NCBI GenBank assembly: GCA_015499995.1
Contig: JADNRV010000035.1
Location: forward strand, 1 to 64,000
Origin: Flammula alnicola
Lineage: Eukaryota > Basidiomycota > Agaricomycetes > Agaricales > Strophariaceae
Direction of reading: 5' to 3'
Length of the DNA stretch: 64,000 bases
The notes under the pieces were generated by a model. It ran no database searches, had not been told where the DNA came from, and saw only the letters and a program-made list of their open reading frames with translations. Of the stretch, positions 17,094 through 23,987 are shown piece after piece; position 1 is the stretch's first letter, and each line of letters begins with the position of its first letter. Both the position numbers and the translations under genes were made by a program.

Positions 17094-18998
17094 TGCTCCT
17101 GATTATTTTTGTCAATCGTAACGATTCCGAAATGGCTCGTGGGCTGCAGAGTCCGATTAGTTTAAGAAAACGTGCAGAATATGTGCTGGAATAAGCCAAT
17201 TCCAGAAAGCTCTCGAATGCGCGTCGAGATAGCCGTTGCGAGCAAGGTGGGTGTTGCGTTCTGTATCGATGGGCTTCGACACCCGCACATGAACTACATA
17301 GAGTATACTACCGGGTCCACCTTGGCTCTGGGCACCCCGCCGGTTACCCCCCGTTCGAGGGTCGGGCACGTACCCAGTTGAATACACGATCCACCAGTGA
17401 AGTCCGGTTTCTCAACCCCCGGTCGGGCCTTTAGCCGTGCATGGCCCCAATCGGGGATTTTTCCATAATGATGGCCCCGGTCTCACAATTTACGGGCCAC
17501 AAGCCTACAAAGCTTGAGTTTTTATTATAGAAAAAATGGTAGACAACATTAAGATCTTAATTTCTATGTGTTTCTTAATACCTACGTCAATAACTAGTGT
17601 GTTCACGGCACCCAGGACCAACCCAGGACATCGTTAGGGAAAGACGGCCCGACATTTCAGACTCCGCTTGACCACATCAACTGTTATCTAACACGGTTAA
17701 TCTCTGTTCTCGACGCCCATCTCCGCTCATCGCGCCACCCGCTCCCCAAAAAAACTAATGCACGAAGGTAAGTATGTAATATTCAACATATCTAATACAT
17801 TTTTACTAACATGTAATGACTTTTTACATAGGCATTCCCTACTCAAAACACAGGAACCGCGGCCGTGTGTCCCTCCCCTCGAATGAGGGATGTGGGCCGG
17901 CTATTTTTGAGGCATGGATGAAGGAGAGGGGGGGGAGAAACACAGGGGGGCCCGTGAAGTGGGAGGCCCGTGCAGTTATGAGTCGTGTTGCCAACGACGA
18001 TGCTAACTCCACCCGATTCACGCAGGTCCCAGACCTTGTCCCTCTCCGTTGTGTTTCGCCTCGCTACGCACACCCAAAGAACCCTCGCCACCCCAAGAAC
18101 CCTCGCAATCAACGACCGCAAGTGCAGACCCTTGCTACCACCTACCAATCACCATGACGTGGCTATGGAGGGCGAGACGAGATGTGGCTACGGAGGGCGA
18201 GACGAGATATGGCTAAGGAAGGTGAGATGAGACAAGTAACGAGGGAAGGACATACGTCCTTCCCTCGTTACTATGTTGCTCGTCTCATCTTACCCTCGTT
18301 GCATGTATCAGAGAGCAACCTGAACCCAAGCCTTTTTCCACATGAAGGCTTTAATTAAAGCTTTAAAATAAATATTCCACAGGTAGATACAAATACTGGA
18401 TAGAAAATAAGGCAAGAAGAAGGACACTGAAGAGAAAAGGACTACGAGCAGGGCGGGAGTTGGCGACTTTCCGCCCCACTCACGTGATGTCCAAATTGGG
18501 ATTGTATTATGTAAAGCACTGAAAATTCAAAGTAGCTCGCCAATTTCGCGACCCAGTTCATAATGTTTGTGGCACGGTGCCACAAAATGAGTTGCCCAAG
18601 TTGCAAATGCCTGACAATGAAGTCCCTCCAGCTTGAAATGCTCTCTTTTTTGGGTGGAAGGGGCATTTATCACTCTTAATTCTCATGAGGCATAATTTTA
18701 ATAAATATAGCATTAGAATATATATCTACTAGACTACTACTATGAAAGCTAGTATAAGAAATAGGGTGTGATATTAGCATAAGTAGAGGCAATGATAGAG
18801 TGCATCATAGCATGGCAGAACACATCAAATGCATCAGGGCAAGCACATAAGGGCTATATGGGGCAGACGTGGTGCTCACAGCATGGGGAGAGGGAGGGGA
18901 GGAGGACGCGGAGGACGCGGAGGATGCGGAGGAGGTGGTGGTGGTGGTTTGAGAGCAAGAAGCCACCGTCACACGCGTTCTTGATTATGGCAAAGCTG
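17094..18998. other. Repeat-rich intergenic region left of the hAT-like element
   Basis: No gene supported. It includes GC-rich sequence at 17310-17480, a hairpin at about 18218-18296, and a GGA/GGT-rich tract at about 18890-18955. A block at 18451-18500 has its inverted partner at about 20625-20670, on the far side of the hAT-like element. Confidence 0.5.
18218..18296. repeat. Inverted repeat with perfect 17-bp arms
   Basis: Arms 18235-18251 and 18256-18272 are perfect reverse complements around a 4-base loop. Similarity continues outward with a few mismatches (gatgagac against gtctcatc). This is typical of a small foldback element. No gene is disrupted. Confidence 0.75.
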
Positions 18999-19006
18999 AT
19001 GGCGAG
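18999..19006. repeat. Target-site duplication, left copy (8 bp)
   Basis: The octamer atggcgag directly precedes the left terminal repeat and recurs at 20556-20563, right after the right terminal repeat. Confidence 0.85.
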
Positions 19007-19118
19007 TAGTGTTGCCGTGACTCAGCTCAACTCGGCTGGGCTCAGCTAACGTGCGGCTTATTGATTTTACGGCTAGCTAAGCTGTAATAAGCTGCTAAAA
19101 TTAGACGGTTCGGCTCAG

Positions 19119-19140
19119 CTAGTCGACTTAAGTCGACTAG
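19119..19140. repeat. 22-bp perfect palindrome in the subterminal region
   Basis: The palindrome is centred on cttaag with GTCGAC on each side. A similar imperfect motif (gtcgacttataagtcg) lies near the other end at about 20422-20440. They are candidate transposase-binding sites. Confidence 0.6.
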
Positions 19141-19182
19141 CCGTGCCTTAAGGTGATATATATGGAAATATATTAAAAATAT

Positions 19183-20099
19183 CTACAATACAGCTTCGTC
19201 GGTGGTACCCTCGCCACTTAGAAGACCCGCGGAGGACGTTTCAGGTTGTGATGTGGCAGCAACGTGAATACCCGTCAATGCCGCGACCATATTGGCGACG
19301 ACCTGCGAAGAAGATCAGCCTCTATACCAACTTTTGAGTCAAGTACATACCATCAGCAATCATGTCCTGCAGCTGCTCCAAGAAGCCGTTGTCAATGACC
19401 AGCTCCGGCTTGAGATCGTACAGCTTAGCAACGCACAGCGCCGCCATCTTGCGCACATAAGGATTCTCGTCTCGGAGACACTTTTGTAGGGGGTCACTGA
19501 GGTAACCGATGATGTTTTCGGCAAGCAGACAGCCCATCGTACGAATCGCCAAGGCCCTTACGAGCGGGTTCGTGTCGTCTGTATCTTTGACAAAGGTGTT
19601 TACCGCTAGGATAACGAGCTCGGGTTGGGTCTTGGCGTAATTCATTAAGTAGAGATATACGAGCTTCTTCTGTTCGAGATCGTCCGTCTGCATGTTCTTG
19701 AGCACGTCGGGGGAGAGTCCACTGACATCTTACGGGATTCTGTTGAGTTACTAGGGCTGAAGATTGCAATATATGCGCACCTTTCCCGACCGTCATCGAC
19801 GCGATGGTGCGCTTGATGGCATCCTTCCGCTTTTCACGATACTCACTATTCGGGTCGATAGCAGTGCTGGGTGCTGGGGATAGCTGGTCGAAATCTGCGT
19901 CGTCGCTGTTGAGGCTGCTGCTGTTTTCATCATCGCCGACTGCTGCCGATGACGAGACGGAGGCAACATAAGAGACTGACGAAGCAAAGGAGAATTTTCG
20001 GGCACTGAGAATGCCAACGGAGGGGGTGGTGGAAGTGAGGACAGGGGTGGAGGTATTTCCTATCGAAGTGGTTAGGAGCGGTTTCTGTACAATAAGGCG
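19183..20099 (-). pseudogene. Captured beta-adaptin (AP complex large subunit) gene fragment
   Basis: The fragment encodes the N-terminal armadillo/HEAT region of an AP-1/AP-2 beta-type adaptin. Recognisable are RKDAIKRTIASMTVGK (exon ending 19781), an intron 19729-19780, then [35 protein letters not shown] and [19 protein letters not shown] in an exon at 19351-19728. A last piece at 19183-19302 reads VVANMVAALTGIHVAA to a stop. Adaptins of this class are about 700 aa or longer, so only a fraction is present. No start codon is found in frame at the 5' end. Splicing the last intron (19303-19350) breaks the frame. The whole fragment lies inside the hAT-like element, retaining introns, so it was captured as genomic DNA. 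Confidence 0.8.
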
Positions 20100-20555
20100 G
20101 ACTGTTGCTTACCGTGGTTCTGCCGCATCTCATGGGCCTTATTCCCCCTGCAGCGCGTTTGCTGTTCTGCTGTTCGCTGGTTTTCTGACGTGTCTTGCAC
20201 AGAGCCGCATCCTTGTTGTGTTAGGCATCTGCGTAGGTCTGACCCTGCCTGCAGTGGGTGTGCTGTAGGTTTCTGGGTGCTGGAGGTTTTCGTGGGCGAG
20301 CCTCGACGTTCATCGGTGGTAAGAGTGAAGACAGGGCGCAACGTTGGTTGAGATAGTTCCCGGGCTTCACGTGCAGAATTACCTCATTTGGAATGGCAAC
20401 TGCAAGCGGCTTGAGCGGCTTGAGTCGACTTATAAGTCGGCTTATAAGATAGCCGCTAGGATTTAGCCGCAAGCTGTTATTTATAACTCGGCTCAGCTAG
20501 CCGTGCGGCTGAGCCGATCCGGCTAGCGAAAATGAGCCGAGTCGCGGCAACACTA

Positions 20556-20563
20556 ATGGCGAG
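20556..20563. repeat. Target-site duplication, right copy (8 bp)
   Basis: Identical to 18999-19006 (atggcgag). Confidence 0.85.
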
Positions 20564-21093
20564 CTGAACGCAACGAACTGATTTGATTCTGAGTATTATA
20601 TAATACTCTTGCCATTTTGGGACTCACGTGCGTGGGGCGGAAAGTCAAAAACTCAGGGCGGGGTGCCCAGAGCGTGACGCGCGAGTGACAGACGCGTAAC
20701 CGCCGCGCCAAAAACGCGGGTGTCCAGGAGTCACGTGATGTAACCGACGTCACCCGGGGCACGCGGCCACCTGAGATAACGCGGGTGTCCAGGAGTCACG
20801 TGATGTAACCGACGTCACCCGGGGCACGCGGCCACCTGAGATACATGACAGAATGATCATGAACGTACACAGCCACATCAATCTAATCTACTATCTGAGC
20901 GAGCACCGTGACTCAGGCGCATCGCGATGAATGCTGAACGCCCAAAGATAGTGAACCAGCCTGTGTGGAATCCTGAAAGGATGCGGATAAATAAAATCGT
21001 TCATTTATATTACATATTATGCTACACTTGTCTTACACGTACACAAGAGAACAACCGAAACACAAGGATCATCTCGACTCTATATGATTTTAA
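20564..21093. other. Intergenic region right of the hAT-like element
   Basis: It contains a 65-bp tandem duplication and, at about 20625-20670, a block that is the inverted counterpart of 18451-18500. No gene seen. Confidence 0.5.
20714..20843. repeat. Perfect 65-bp tandem duplication with CACGTG and GACGTC
   Basis: Units 20714-20778 and 20779-20843 are identical. Each contains tcacgtga (an E-box-type palindrome) and gacgtca (a CRE-like half site). Perfect identity suggests a recent slip or unequal exchange. Confidence 0.9.
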
Positions 21094-22216: not shown

Positions 22217-23987
22217 GATCCCAGTTGTTGTGAACTTTGGGGCCTCGGGCAAGGGATATCGATCCGACGTAAATGGAGCCCTATAAATATGCGCGGCCTA
22301 CATAGCTTGAAGTCGTGCTTCGAAGATCTAACTGTGCATTGCCACCAATCAGGATTGTTATCAGGAATCAGGATGACAACCTGTTCAGTTCAAGCGAAAT
22401 TACGACATATGGCTAGCGCTTGATCAAAACGCGACCGAACAAAAGAATCCGTTGCCAGCTCGACGGTATTGCCATGTCCAAGTGCTTAGTGCGGGGCCCT
22501 CTAGTGTTTCATGCCTGGTCTACAGGCTACAGCTGACGGAGATCATAATTTTTCCTTCAAGAGAAATTCTGGACGAACTTGTTGACCAAAGCGTTGGGTG
22601 TTCGGGAAGCCAGCCCCGTGGCTACTAGCTAGATTTATTTACGCATGCGATCTGCCAAAAAGCAGTGTCAGGACACAATCACAGGAGGCCCGAAACACTT
22701 GCAAAGAATGATTATTTACTTACGGAACCTAATGTCCAGGCACGATGAGGACCAACCATGACACGGCTCGCGTTTTATCAGGCAGTGGTGCGTCAGCCTC
22801 AGAGACATCTTCAAGAGCTTAATCGACAGGAGTGGAAGTTCTTACGTGACTGTCTCGAAGAGAACAACGGTTCTAGTGGAAACAGTTGTCGGCGATATGT
22901 AGTATGATTGAAGGTGTTGGAGGAGGATGATCGGAGCTCGGAGCTGCTATTCGCATACCGCGCTAGGTGAAAGCAAGAAAAGCACTCAGGCCACCCGTAG
23001 GACATCCTAAAACTCAAAAAATAGCAGTCCACGTAGATACGGGGAATTCAAACCGGGAGGCCAGTGTATGAGAACCGTTGAACTTCAAGTTTCGGATGGG
23101 TGAGTTGTCTGCCAATATTAGCAGTTACTCCAAAGGCGTATGCCATGTCTTTATCCTCGCCGAAGCATCCAAAATAATCGCAGCAGCAAAGGGACATAAA
23201 TCATGTTGGAATGCATGTGCCATAGGTTATGCGAAGAACATGGACATGGGGTGAAAGGTGTGGGTGGCTGGTAAACAATGTTCTCCCTTCCGCGATTGCT
23301 TTTGCTGGTGTTGCTAATCCCCCGGCGCTCTCCTCTGCCACCCCCCATCTATACTGAATACAAAGCCGACATCCGAAAAGAAGGTTCTTTAGATGTTGAG
23401 CTTAGTCCTGCGCCAGTGACGACGCTTGGCGTTGTACTGATGGAAGTATTTGGCAATAAATATCTTGCTTCAGTCAAGACAATAAAATACGCACTTGGAT
23501 CTTAGTATCTGTCTTTAGGCGGAACCATTGGGGAATGGGCCTGTACGCAAAATTGAAACCGTCAACAGCTCATCCCGAACATATACCTTGCAATATCAAC
23601 GCACCTGTTTTGACGGCCGGCCTTAGCGAGGATTCGTTTTGTGCGGAAGGTCTTTTGGGAAGGCTACAAGGTCATAATACGGTTTATCAGAGACGTTCAA
23701 TGGTCCTAGAGTATGATTTGCTCACCATTGTTGTCGACGGCGGCGGCTAGGGGACGTTACGGTGGATATTTGTGTCGTGCTTGAAAATAAGGTTAGCAGG
23801 TGGCGCGAGCTGTATAGTTGTTGTCTCTTGCTTGGGAGGGCCGAAATCCTGCCGAGATGGCTTTCCCAGACCGGAGTCTGGTGATGGCTGATCTCAATCA
23901 CGTGTTTCCCACGTCGCCAGGCGCCTGTAAATAATTACCCATCTCTCAAGTTCGTCGTGTCATCGTTCTCATCCTTATCCTCTCAAA
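22217..23987. other. Intergenic region upstream of FKBP
   Basis: No gene could be supported; the ORFs are short and show no recognisable motif. It holds the divergent promoters of copy D and the FKBP gene. Confidence 0.45.

Follow-up and report, generated by a model that had tools for sequence, protein, structure and literature searches.

The locus described here raises the question of how a piece of a host gene, introns included, came to lie between the ends of a small DNA transposon, and whether that piece has since travelled with the transposon. It is found in a stretch of 64,000 nucleotides of the genome of Flammula alnicola, an agaric in the family Strophariaceae (contig JADNRV010000035.1, positions 1 to 64,000 of the forward strand; hereafter 'the window'), where an earlier note had described a gene-capturing hAT-like element from the letters of the DNA. 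The element is 1,549 bp long (19007-20555), its ends TAGTGTTGCC...GGCAACACTA match as an inverted repeat at 21 of the 23 outer bp, and it lies between two perfect copies of an 8-bp target-site duplication (18999-19006 and 20556-20563); ends, length and duplication are exactly as that note had given them. The parts of the element and of its surroundings are as follows, in window coordinates.

17300-20844, no strand assigned: entire nest (outer repeat, host repeat and hAT element), missing from the allelic contig C258
18457-20654, no strand assigned: host repeat of ~640 bp, split by the element (18457-19006, resuming at 20564-20654); its other copies are uninterrupted
18999-19006, no strand assigned: left 8-bp target-site duplication, ATGGCGAG, read from the sequence and present as a single copy in three paralogous empty sites compared base by base
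19007-19225, plus strand: hAT left end, with terminal inverted repeat and subterminal repeats; its counterpart in the transposase-bearing copy C156 is 96% identical
19183-19225, minus strand: transposase-gene remnant, the last ~14 codons and stop, matching in position the 3′ terminus of the L021 transposase model
19227-19858, minus strand: captured genomic fragment of an AP-1/AP-2 beta-adaptin gene, 94% identical to C2 and 93% to C90
19859-20053, minus strand: remnant of an AreA-like GATA-factor gene, 91% identical to C601 and derived from the region upstream of the zinc fingers
20054-20305, no strand assigned: internal segment common to the other copies, C634 and the two-copy unit C834/C138
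20305-20315, no strand assigned: point of an internal loss of ~127 bp that six of the eight small copies retain; C848 has the same deletion
20315-20555, plus strand: hAT right end, with terminal inverted repeat and subterminal repeats
20556-20563, no strand assigned: right 8-bp target-site duplication, ATGGCGAG, read from the sequence

The terminal inverted repeats of hAT elements are typically short and begin with TA or CA. The dense subterminal repeats that had been noted are also present at both ends of the window element: the left-hand 150 bp contain five occurrences of the motif CGGCT/AGCCG and the right-hand 170 bp contain 11, compared with three in the intervening 1,229 bp, and none of 500 dinucleotide shuffles had counts as high at either end. 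Helitrons, by contrast, are rolling-circle elements not known to have terminal inverted repeats or target duplications, whereas the window element has inverted repeats and 8-bp duplications. The host repeat that the element interrupts is itself MITE-like: its ends are inverted, and it too appears to be flanked by 8-bp duplications (CAGGGCGG in the window). It lies inside a larger repeat, so that the window holds a transposon within a transposon within a third repeat. A perfect 65-bp tandem duplication (20713-20842) marks the right edge of this nest, and on the minus strand at ~23394-23440, 16 residues weakly resemble ribosomal protein L39 (Pfam, E 7e-5) and may represent a single exon of its gene.

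A search of the assembly (74.4 Mb in 861 contigs) with the element found seven further small copies of 1,550-1,678 bp (C848, C346, C164, C16, C401, C530 and C246), and a long relative of 5,907 bp (C156). All nine complete copies (the eight small ones and C156) have both ends and are flanked by perfect 8-bp duplications, every one different; the earlier note had held that a transposon would be in doubt if no second locus shared its termini, and eight other loci have both. When the terminus pattern was searched genome-wide with up to three mismatches, 26 termini were found, 18 of which form the nine pairs, and the reversed-pattern control found none. The remaining termini comprise one end at C634, one each at C268 and C392 with a single mismatch, and five with two or three mismatches. 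For all eight single-ended loci tried, no partner end with a matching duplication was found, and no further gene-carrying element could be assembled from the unpaired termini among the 26. In pairwise comparison, gaps ignored, the small copies are 94.2-99.9% identical (28 pairs), and C346 and C164 differ at one base in 1,667 aligned (gaps again ignored), with different flanks and different duplications. Such near-identity at different places is a signature of recent movement.

Empty sites tell the same loci from the other side. We joined 150 bp of each flank with one copy of the 8 bp kept, and scored 40 of the 248 candidates; these yielded empty sites for at least six of the nine copies (the window copy, C848, C164, C16, C401 and C530), and none for C346, C246 and C156 among the 40 scored. 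Eight empty loci, three of them for the window copy and one for each of the other five, were inspected at single-base level, and all cross the junction gap-free, with one mismatch within the 8 bp at the C530 site; the empty sites of the window copy, C848 and C401 are other copies of a repeat. Further, the allelic contig C258 is 91-94% identical to the window and is without both the element and its surrounding repeats (~17300-20844). As the window allele is thus present as a separate contig, it appears that both haplotypes were assembled. The earlier note had proposed that the same sequence without the duplication, at the orthologous locus of a related species, would speak against insertion; what we find within the same genome is empty sites that have the 8 bp once and an allele that lacks the element, neither of which does so. 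An assembly of 861 contigs with both haplotypes apparently present might be suspected of containing an ordinary segmental duplication, or an assembly artefact, that mimics a transposon, but nine different perfect duplications and six copies with empty sites already refute this reading, to which we assign a negligible probability.

The nature of the family is given by its long member. The minus strand of C156 encodes a Dimer_Tnp_hAT domain (PF05699; E 2.8e-10, or E 1.2e-12 in a spliced model), and the transposase model is 44-45% identical, over most of its 686 residues, to the best-scoring agaric hAT transposases, those of Pleurotus and Mycena. As assembled, this gene has two in-frame stops and a frame change in its catalytic region. 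A search with 140 residues of it found no second copy in the assembly, the best other matches being 64-69% identical, and no intact autonomous copy of the family was found by searches with the partial transposase protein, with PF05699 and with the end pattern. The autonomous element with the same ends that the earlier note had suggested looking for therefore has a partial counterpart in C156, which encodes a transposase but one that is interrupted as assembled; because it is broken and no second copy was found in the assembly, the source of the transposase that moved the small copies is something we infer. Related hAT genes with similar ends do exist, for example on C2 near 313.5-315.9 kb (64% in the tested region). 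PF05699 has 63 matches in this genome and matches none of 14 control genomes. Some of the 63 (C24, C124, C179) score equally and contain open frames of 225 aa, and other hAT families may thus be recent or active.

The small copies descend from an element of the C156 kind. It had been stated that the window element contains gene sequence instead of a transposase, and there is indeed no transposase gene in the window copy; what had been overlooked is that the left end of the small copies still contains the final ~14 codons and the stop of one (window 19183-19225), which makes these copies internal-deletion derivatives of a transposase-bearing element. The reading of the window element as a gene-capturing hAT-type transposon is thus supported by the 8-bp duplications of nine out of nine copies, by ends in common with the transposase-encoding C156, by empty sites for six of the nine and by the donor loci described next, and the earlier call of hAT is upheld.

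The cargo lies on the minus strand, which encodes Adaptin_N (E 1.2e-39); in the element's own frame the best PDB match is AP-1 complex subunit beta-1 (E 1.3e-51), with AP-2 beta at 3e-51. The adaptin piece (19227-19858) consists of part of exon 1, intron 1, exon 2, intron 2 and part of exon 3, in agreement with the earlier description of a minus-strand fragment with introns. Both donor introns are retained, as they would not be in an intronless retrocopy, and their retention indicates that DNA rather than a transcript was taken up. A full-length donor, which the earlier note had proposed to seek, is present: C90 contains a complete adaptin gene (P0001, 728 aa), and the C2 locus is 92.6% identical to that of C90 over 7.5 kb. 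The two are most likely alleles of the beta-adaptin gene and the probable donors.

Taken over all copies, the adaptin sequence spans ~1.08 kb of donor (L017 3562-4643), and the stretch in C156 differs from, but overlaps, the stretch of the same gene in the small copies. C156 and the eight small copies agree at three sites and one junction base where both donors have a different base; judged from these sequences, a single adaptin capture common to all of them is probable. Gene-derived adaptin and GATA pieces lie inside the ends of all eight small copies. Given eight small copies with different duplications and a common adaptin capture, the adaptin piece was multiplied by transposition after it was captured.

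As these GATA pieces imply, adaptin is one of two cargoes; the earlier note had correctly named it and missed the other. The sequence that adjoins adaptin (~19859-20053 in the window) matches a C601 gene for an AreA-like GATA factor (Pfam domains GATA and GATA_AreA). GATA sequence abuts adaptin on the left in C156 and on the right in the small copies. Of the GATA gene at C601, the ~586 bp that separate these two contact points (L022 3415-4000) are missing from the adaptin-bearing copies. A further relative, C634, has the same left end and no adaptin, and keeps most of that GATA stretch (to L022 3941). GATA sequence on either side of adaptin, together with an adaptin-free relative, suggests that adaptin likely overwrote the middle of an earlier GATA capture, and the simplest reading is that the GATA piece would have been captured first and adaptin would then have replaced its middle.

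The bracketing of adaptin by GATA sequence is the stronger argument for this order, since the right end of C634 is gone and its position as sister of the small copies is weakly supported (63/68). C634 also has deletions and an insertion of its own, the latter lying ~390 bp in from the left end (L020) and similar in appearance to a further small mobile element. Given this weak placement, the missing right end and the private insertion and deletions, one could propose that C634 is a later recombinant, which lost adaptin and regained GATA sequence from either the C601 gene or the C834/C138 unit. We consider this distinctly unlikely, as the GATA stretch of C634 is only 83-87% identical to C601 and, over long pieces, 74-81% identical to C138 and C834, which makes recent conversion from any of these unlikely, and as GATA sequence still flanks adaptin on both sides when C634 is set aside.

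The C834/C138 unit is itself a repeated sequence of ~2 kb, present at two sites with different flanks (L018 2794-4789; L019 3726-5710) and 98% identical between them. It carries GATA-gene sequence and ~460 bp also present in the hAT elements, and the window segment 20054-20305 recurs in it. Its C138 copy is apparently inside another repeat. A Helitron identity was considered for the unit, one end of which is close to a hairpin, but no further end signal was seen and the assignment was dropped.

Where the loss of the transposase falls in this series is less clear-cut. C634 and the small copies have internal deletions that start within ~2 bp of each other (L021 near 2219-2221, close to the transposase 3′ end) and whose other ends are ~620 bp apart. 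Starts so nearly identical are odd for independent events, so that a loss of the transposase either before or after the adaptin step fits the data; the common start possibly reflects a breakage hot spot or one common early event.

Considering all of the above, we think it probable that the window element is a transposase-less hAT element that arose by a short series of events. A transposase-bearing hAT element would have taken up the GATA piece; adaptin would then have overwritten part of that piece in the course of break repair or gap filling with a template switch; the element would have lost its transposase; and transposase supplied in trans would have spread the stripped element through the genome. 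The order of these events, the gap filling with template switch and the mobilization in trans are each likely, as deduced from the surviving copies. Since both ends of the element would already have been in place when adaptin replaced an inner stretch of it, break repair with a template switch fits best. Gap filling has been discussed for Pack-MULEs and for animal Pack-TIRs, and in the latter some microhomology is reported at one or more breakpoints in 67.6% of elements (PMC8277862). At the two adaptin junctions here, microhomology was looked for by eye and none is evident.

One feature of the donor gene goes beyond what gap filling needs. The C2 donor contains TAGTGTTGAC (L016 3994-4003), which matches 9 of the 10 bases of the element end TAGTGTTGCC and straddles the capture boundary with its captured side inward; at the equivalent boundary of C90 (L017 4643) the match is 8/10. 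This 10-mer may be a cryptic transposon end in the host gene, and it would be suggestive, post hoc, of the transposase itself having acted at the donor by cutting or marking the adaptin gene. The match is a single one and post hoc, as the other boundaries compared reach only 5-7/10. Of 5,000 random 60-bp windows drawn from the two donor loci, 17 reach 9/10, and most of these must cover the same TAGTGTTGAC site.

It is thus conceivable that the transposase acted on the donor instead, using either flanking hAT copies or a chance end-like site, and that aberrant excision carried the piece into the element. The C2 10-mer lies exactly across the boundary and in the correct orientation, as such an event would have it, and a model of capture by flanking ends has been published for Pack-CACTA elements (PMC13317346). 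Even so, remnants of one and the same earlier GATA capture flank the adaptin piece on both sides. The second adaptin boundary and four GATA boundaries match the element end at only 5-7/10, no longer match to the element ends was seen at either donor locus, and we regard capture in this way as unlikely. Repair of a break within an element that already held GATA sequence remains our preferred reading. A more general proposition, on which we would place even odds, is that the interior of a hAT element is a rewritable slot: some ~590 bp of a first gene, captured from chromosomal DNA by a transposase-bearing element, gave way to a second gene, an end-like site in the donor perhaps having served as a guide, with the states before capture, with a transposase and after stripping and amplification all surviving. 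If this proposition is true, gene capture can be read step by step in the genome of one mushroom.

Whether the captured piece does anything for the element or its host can be judged from how it has changed. Distinct derived changes in the eight small copies amount to 20/181, 21/181 and 21/166 at first, second and third codon positions (0.110, 0.116 and 0.127 per site) and to 12/96 in introns (0.125). Between C2 and C90 the corresponding differences are 0/181, 0/181 and 15/181, with 4/100 in introns. After rough splicing along the donor coordinates, every one of the eight copies has one to three exon gaps and one to five stops in its best frame. A coding function for the adaptin piece was considered and rejected, as it starts within exon 1 and ends within exon 3, has gaps and stops, and shows no codon-position bias. 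The cargo is most likely a neutral passenger without function, and the neutral evolution of these pieces argues against presuming function for captured fragments.

The earlier note had raised the possibility of antisense or small RNA from the fragment, and mobile adaptin pieces might by that route lower the expression of the host beta-adaptin gene. The window copy does have 185 of 615 exact 21-mers in common with C90 and 240 of 615 with C2, and exact stretches of up to 103 bp are found between it and the donors. Substitutions are, however, evenly distributed over codon positions and introns, and nothing indicates selection for retention, and we consider silencing of this sort very unlikely; the fragment is better regarded as the neutral passenger described above.

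How cut-and-paste transposons acquire host genes is debated, with gap filling, template switching during replication and capture by flanking ends all under discussion, and it is debated in part because intermediates are rarely found. In this genome the donors coexist with a candidate for the pre-capture element, with a relative that bears a transposase and with the amplified products, and because the two captures overlap, their order can be read. Transduplication by hAT elements is already known in ascomycetes (histone H3) and in plants (Pack-hAT). What is new is the mushroom setting, the intron-bearing capture and the preserved intermediates of serial capture. Among the literature matches listed (titles and the starts of abstracts), none concerned gene capture by a hAT element in a basidiomycete, which does not imply absence in print, and which accords with the earlier view that such capture is little known in mushrooms.

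The closest parallels come from ascomycetes. In Pyrenophora tritici-repentis, a hAT element is described as having transduplicated a histone H3-like sequence and as occurring in a transposase-bearing form of ~5.6 kb and a non-autonomous form of 2.3 kb, the short form having been derived from the long by internal recombination (Manning et al., 2013; PMC3538342). The present family is similar in being a fungal hAT with non-transposon coding sequence and with long and short forms. It differs in that Pyrenophora is an ascomycete whose histone-like frame is reported to be open and represented by ESTs, whereas here the host is an agaric and the cargo is intron-bearing and decaying, and in that a second host gene was probably captured earlier here and partly overwritten (PMC3538342). 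Similarly, a hAT element of Pseudocercospora fijiensis and its relatives is reported to have taken up a housekeeping gene, again histone H3, and to have multiplied it; that capture is described as intronless, from a transcript or retrocopy, with RIP-mutated copies, while ours is of chromosomal DNA with its introns (PMC6710886). The present case extends hAT gene capture to an agaric and to the uptake of intron-bearing chromosomal sequence.

Among mushrooms, the MarorhAT elements of Marasmius oreades are also agaric hATs, a family in which one form bears a transposase and several shorter ones have the same ends, and they are reported to have been demonstrated active; the word stem 'captur' is absent from the main text of that report (PMC9674265). 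Capture of gene fragments by a DNA transposon in a mushroom has likewise been described for the Helitrons of Pleurotus ostreatus (PMC4289320). Plant Pack-hATs, like our small copies, are non-autonomous and have hAT ends, 8-bp duplications and pieces of genes, but Pack-TYPE elements are described there from plants, whereas in the present family cargo is also found in the relative with a transposase, and a relative without adaptin is still present (Gisby and Catoni, 2022; PMC8903248). Finally, the animal Pack-TIRs resemble the present family in that capture into pre-existing TIR elements is attributed to template switching and that some were multiplied afterwards. For four multicopy Pack-TIRs of frog and alligator that report found no capture-free element at orthologous loci, and for a fly case it names a likely precursor; unlike the frog and alligator elements, the family described here has a candidate pre-capture state in the same genome, and two captures that overlap (PMC8277862).
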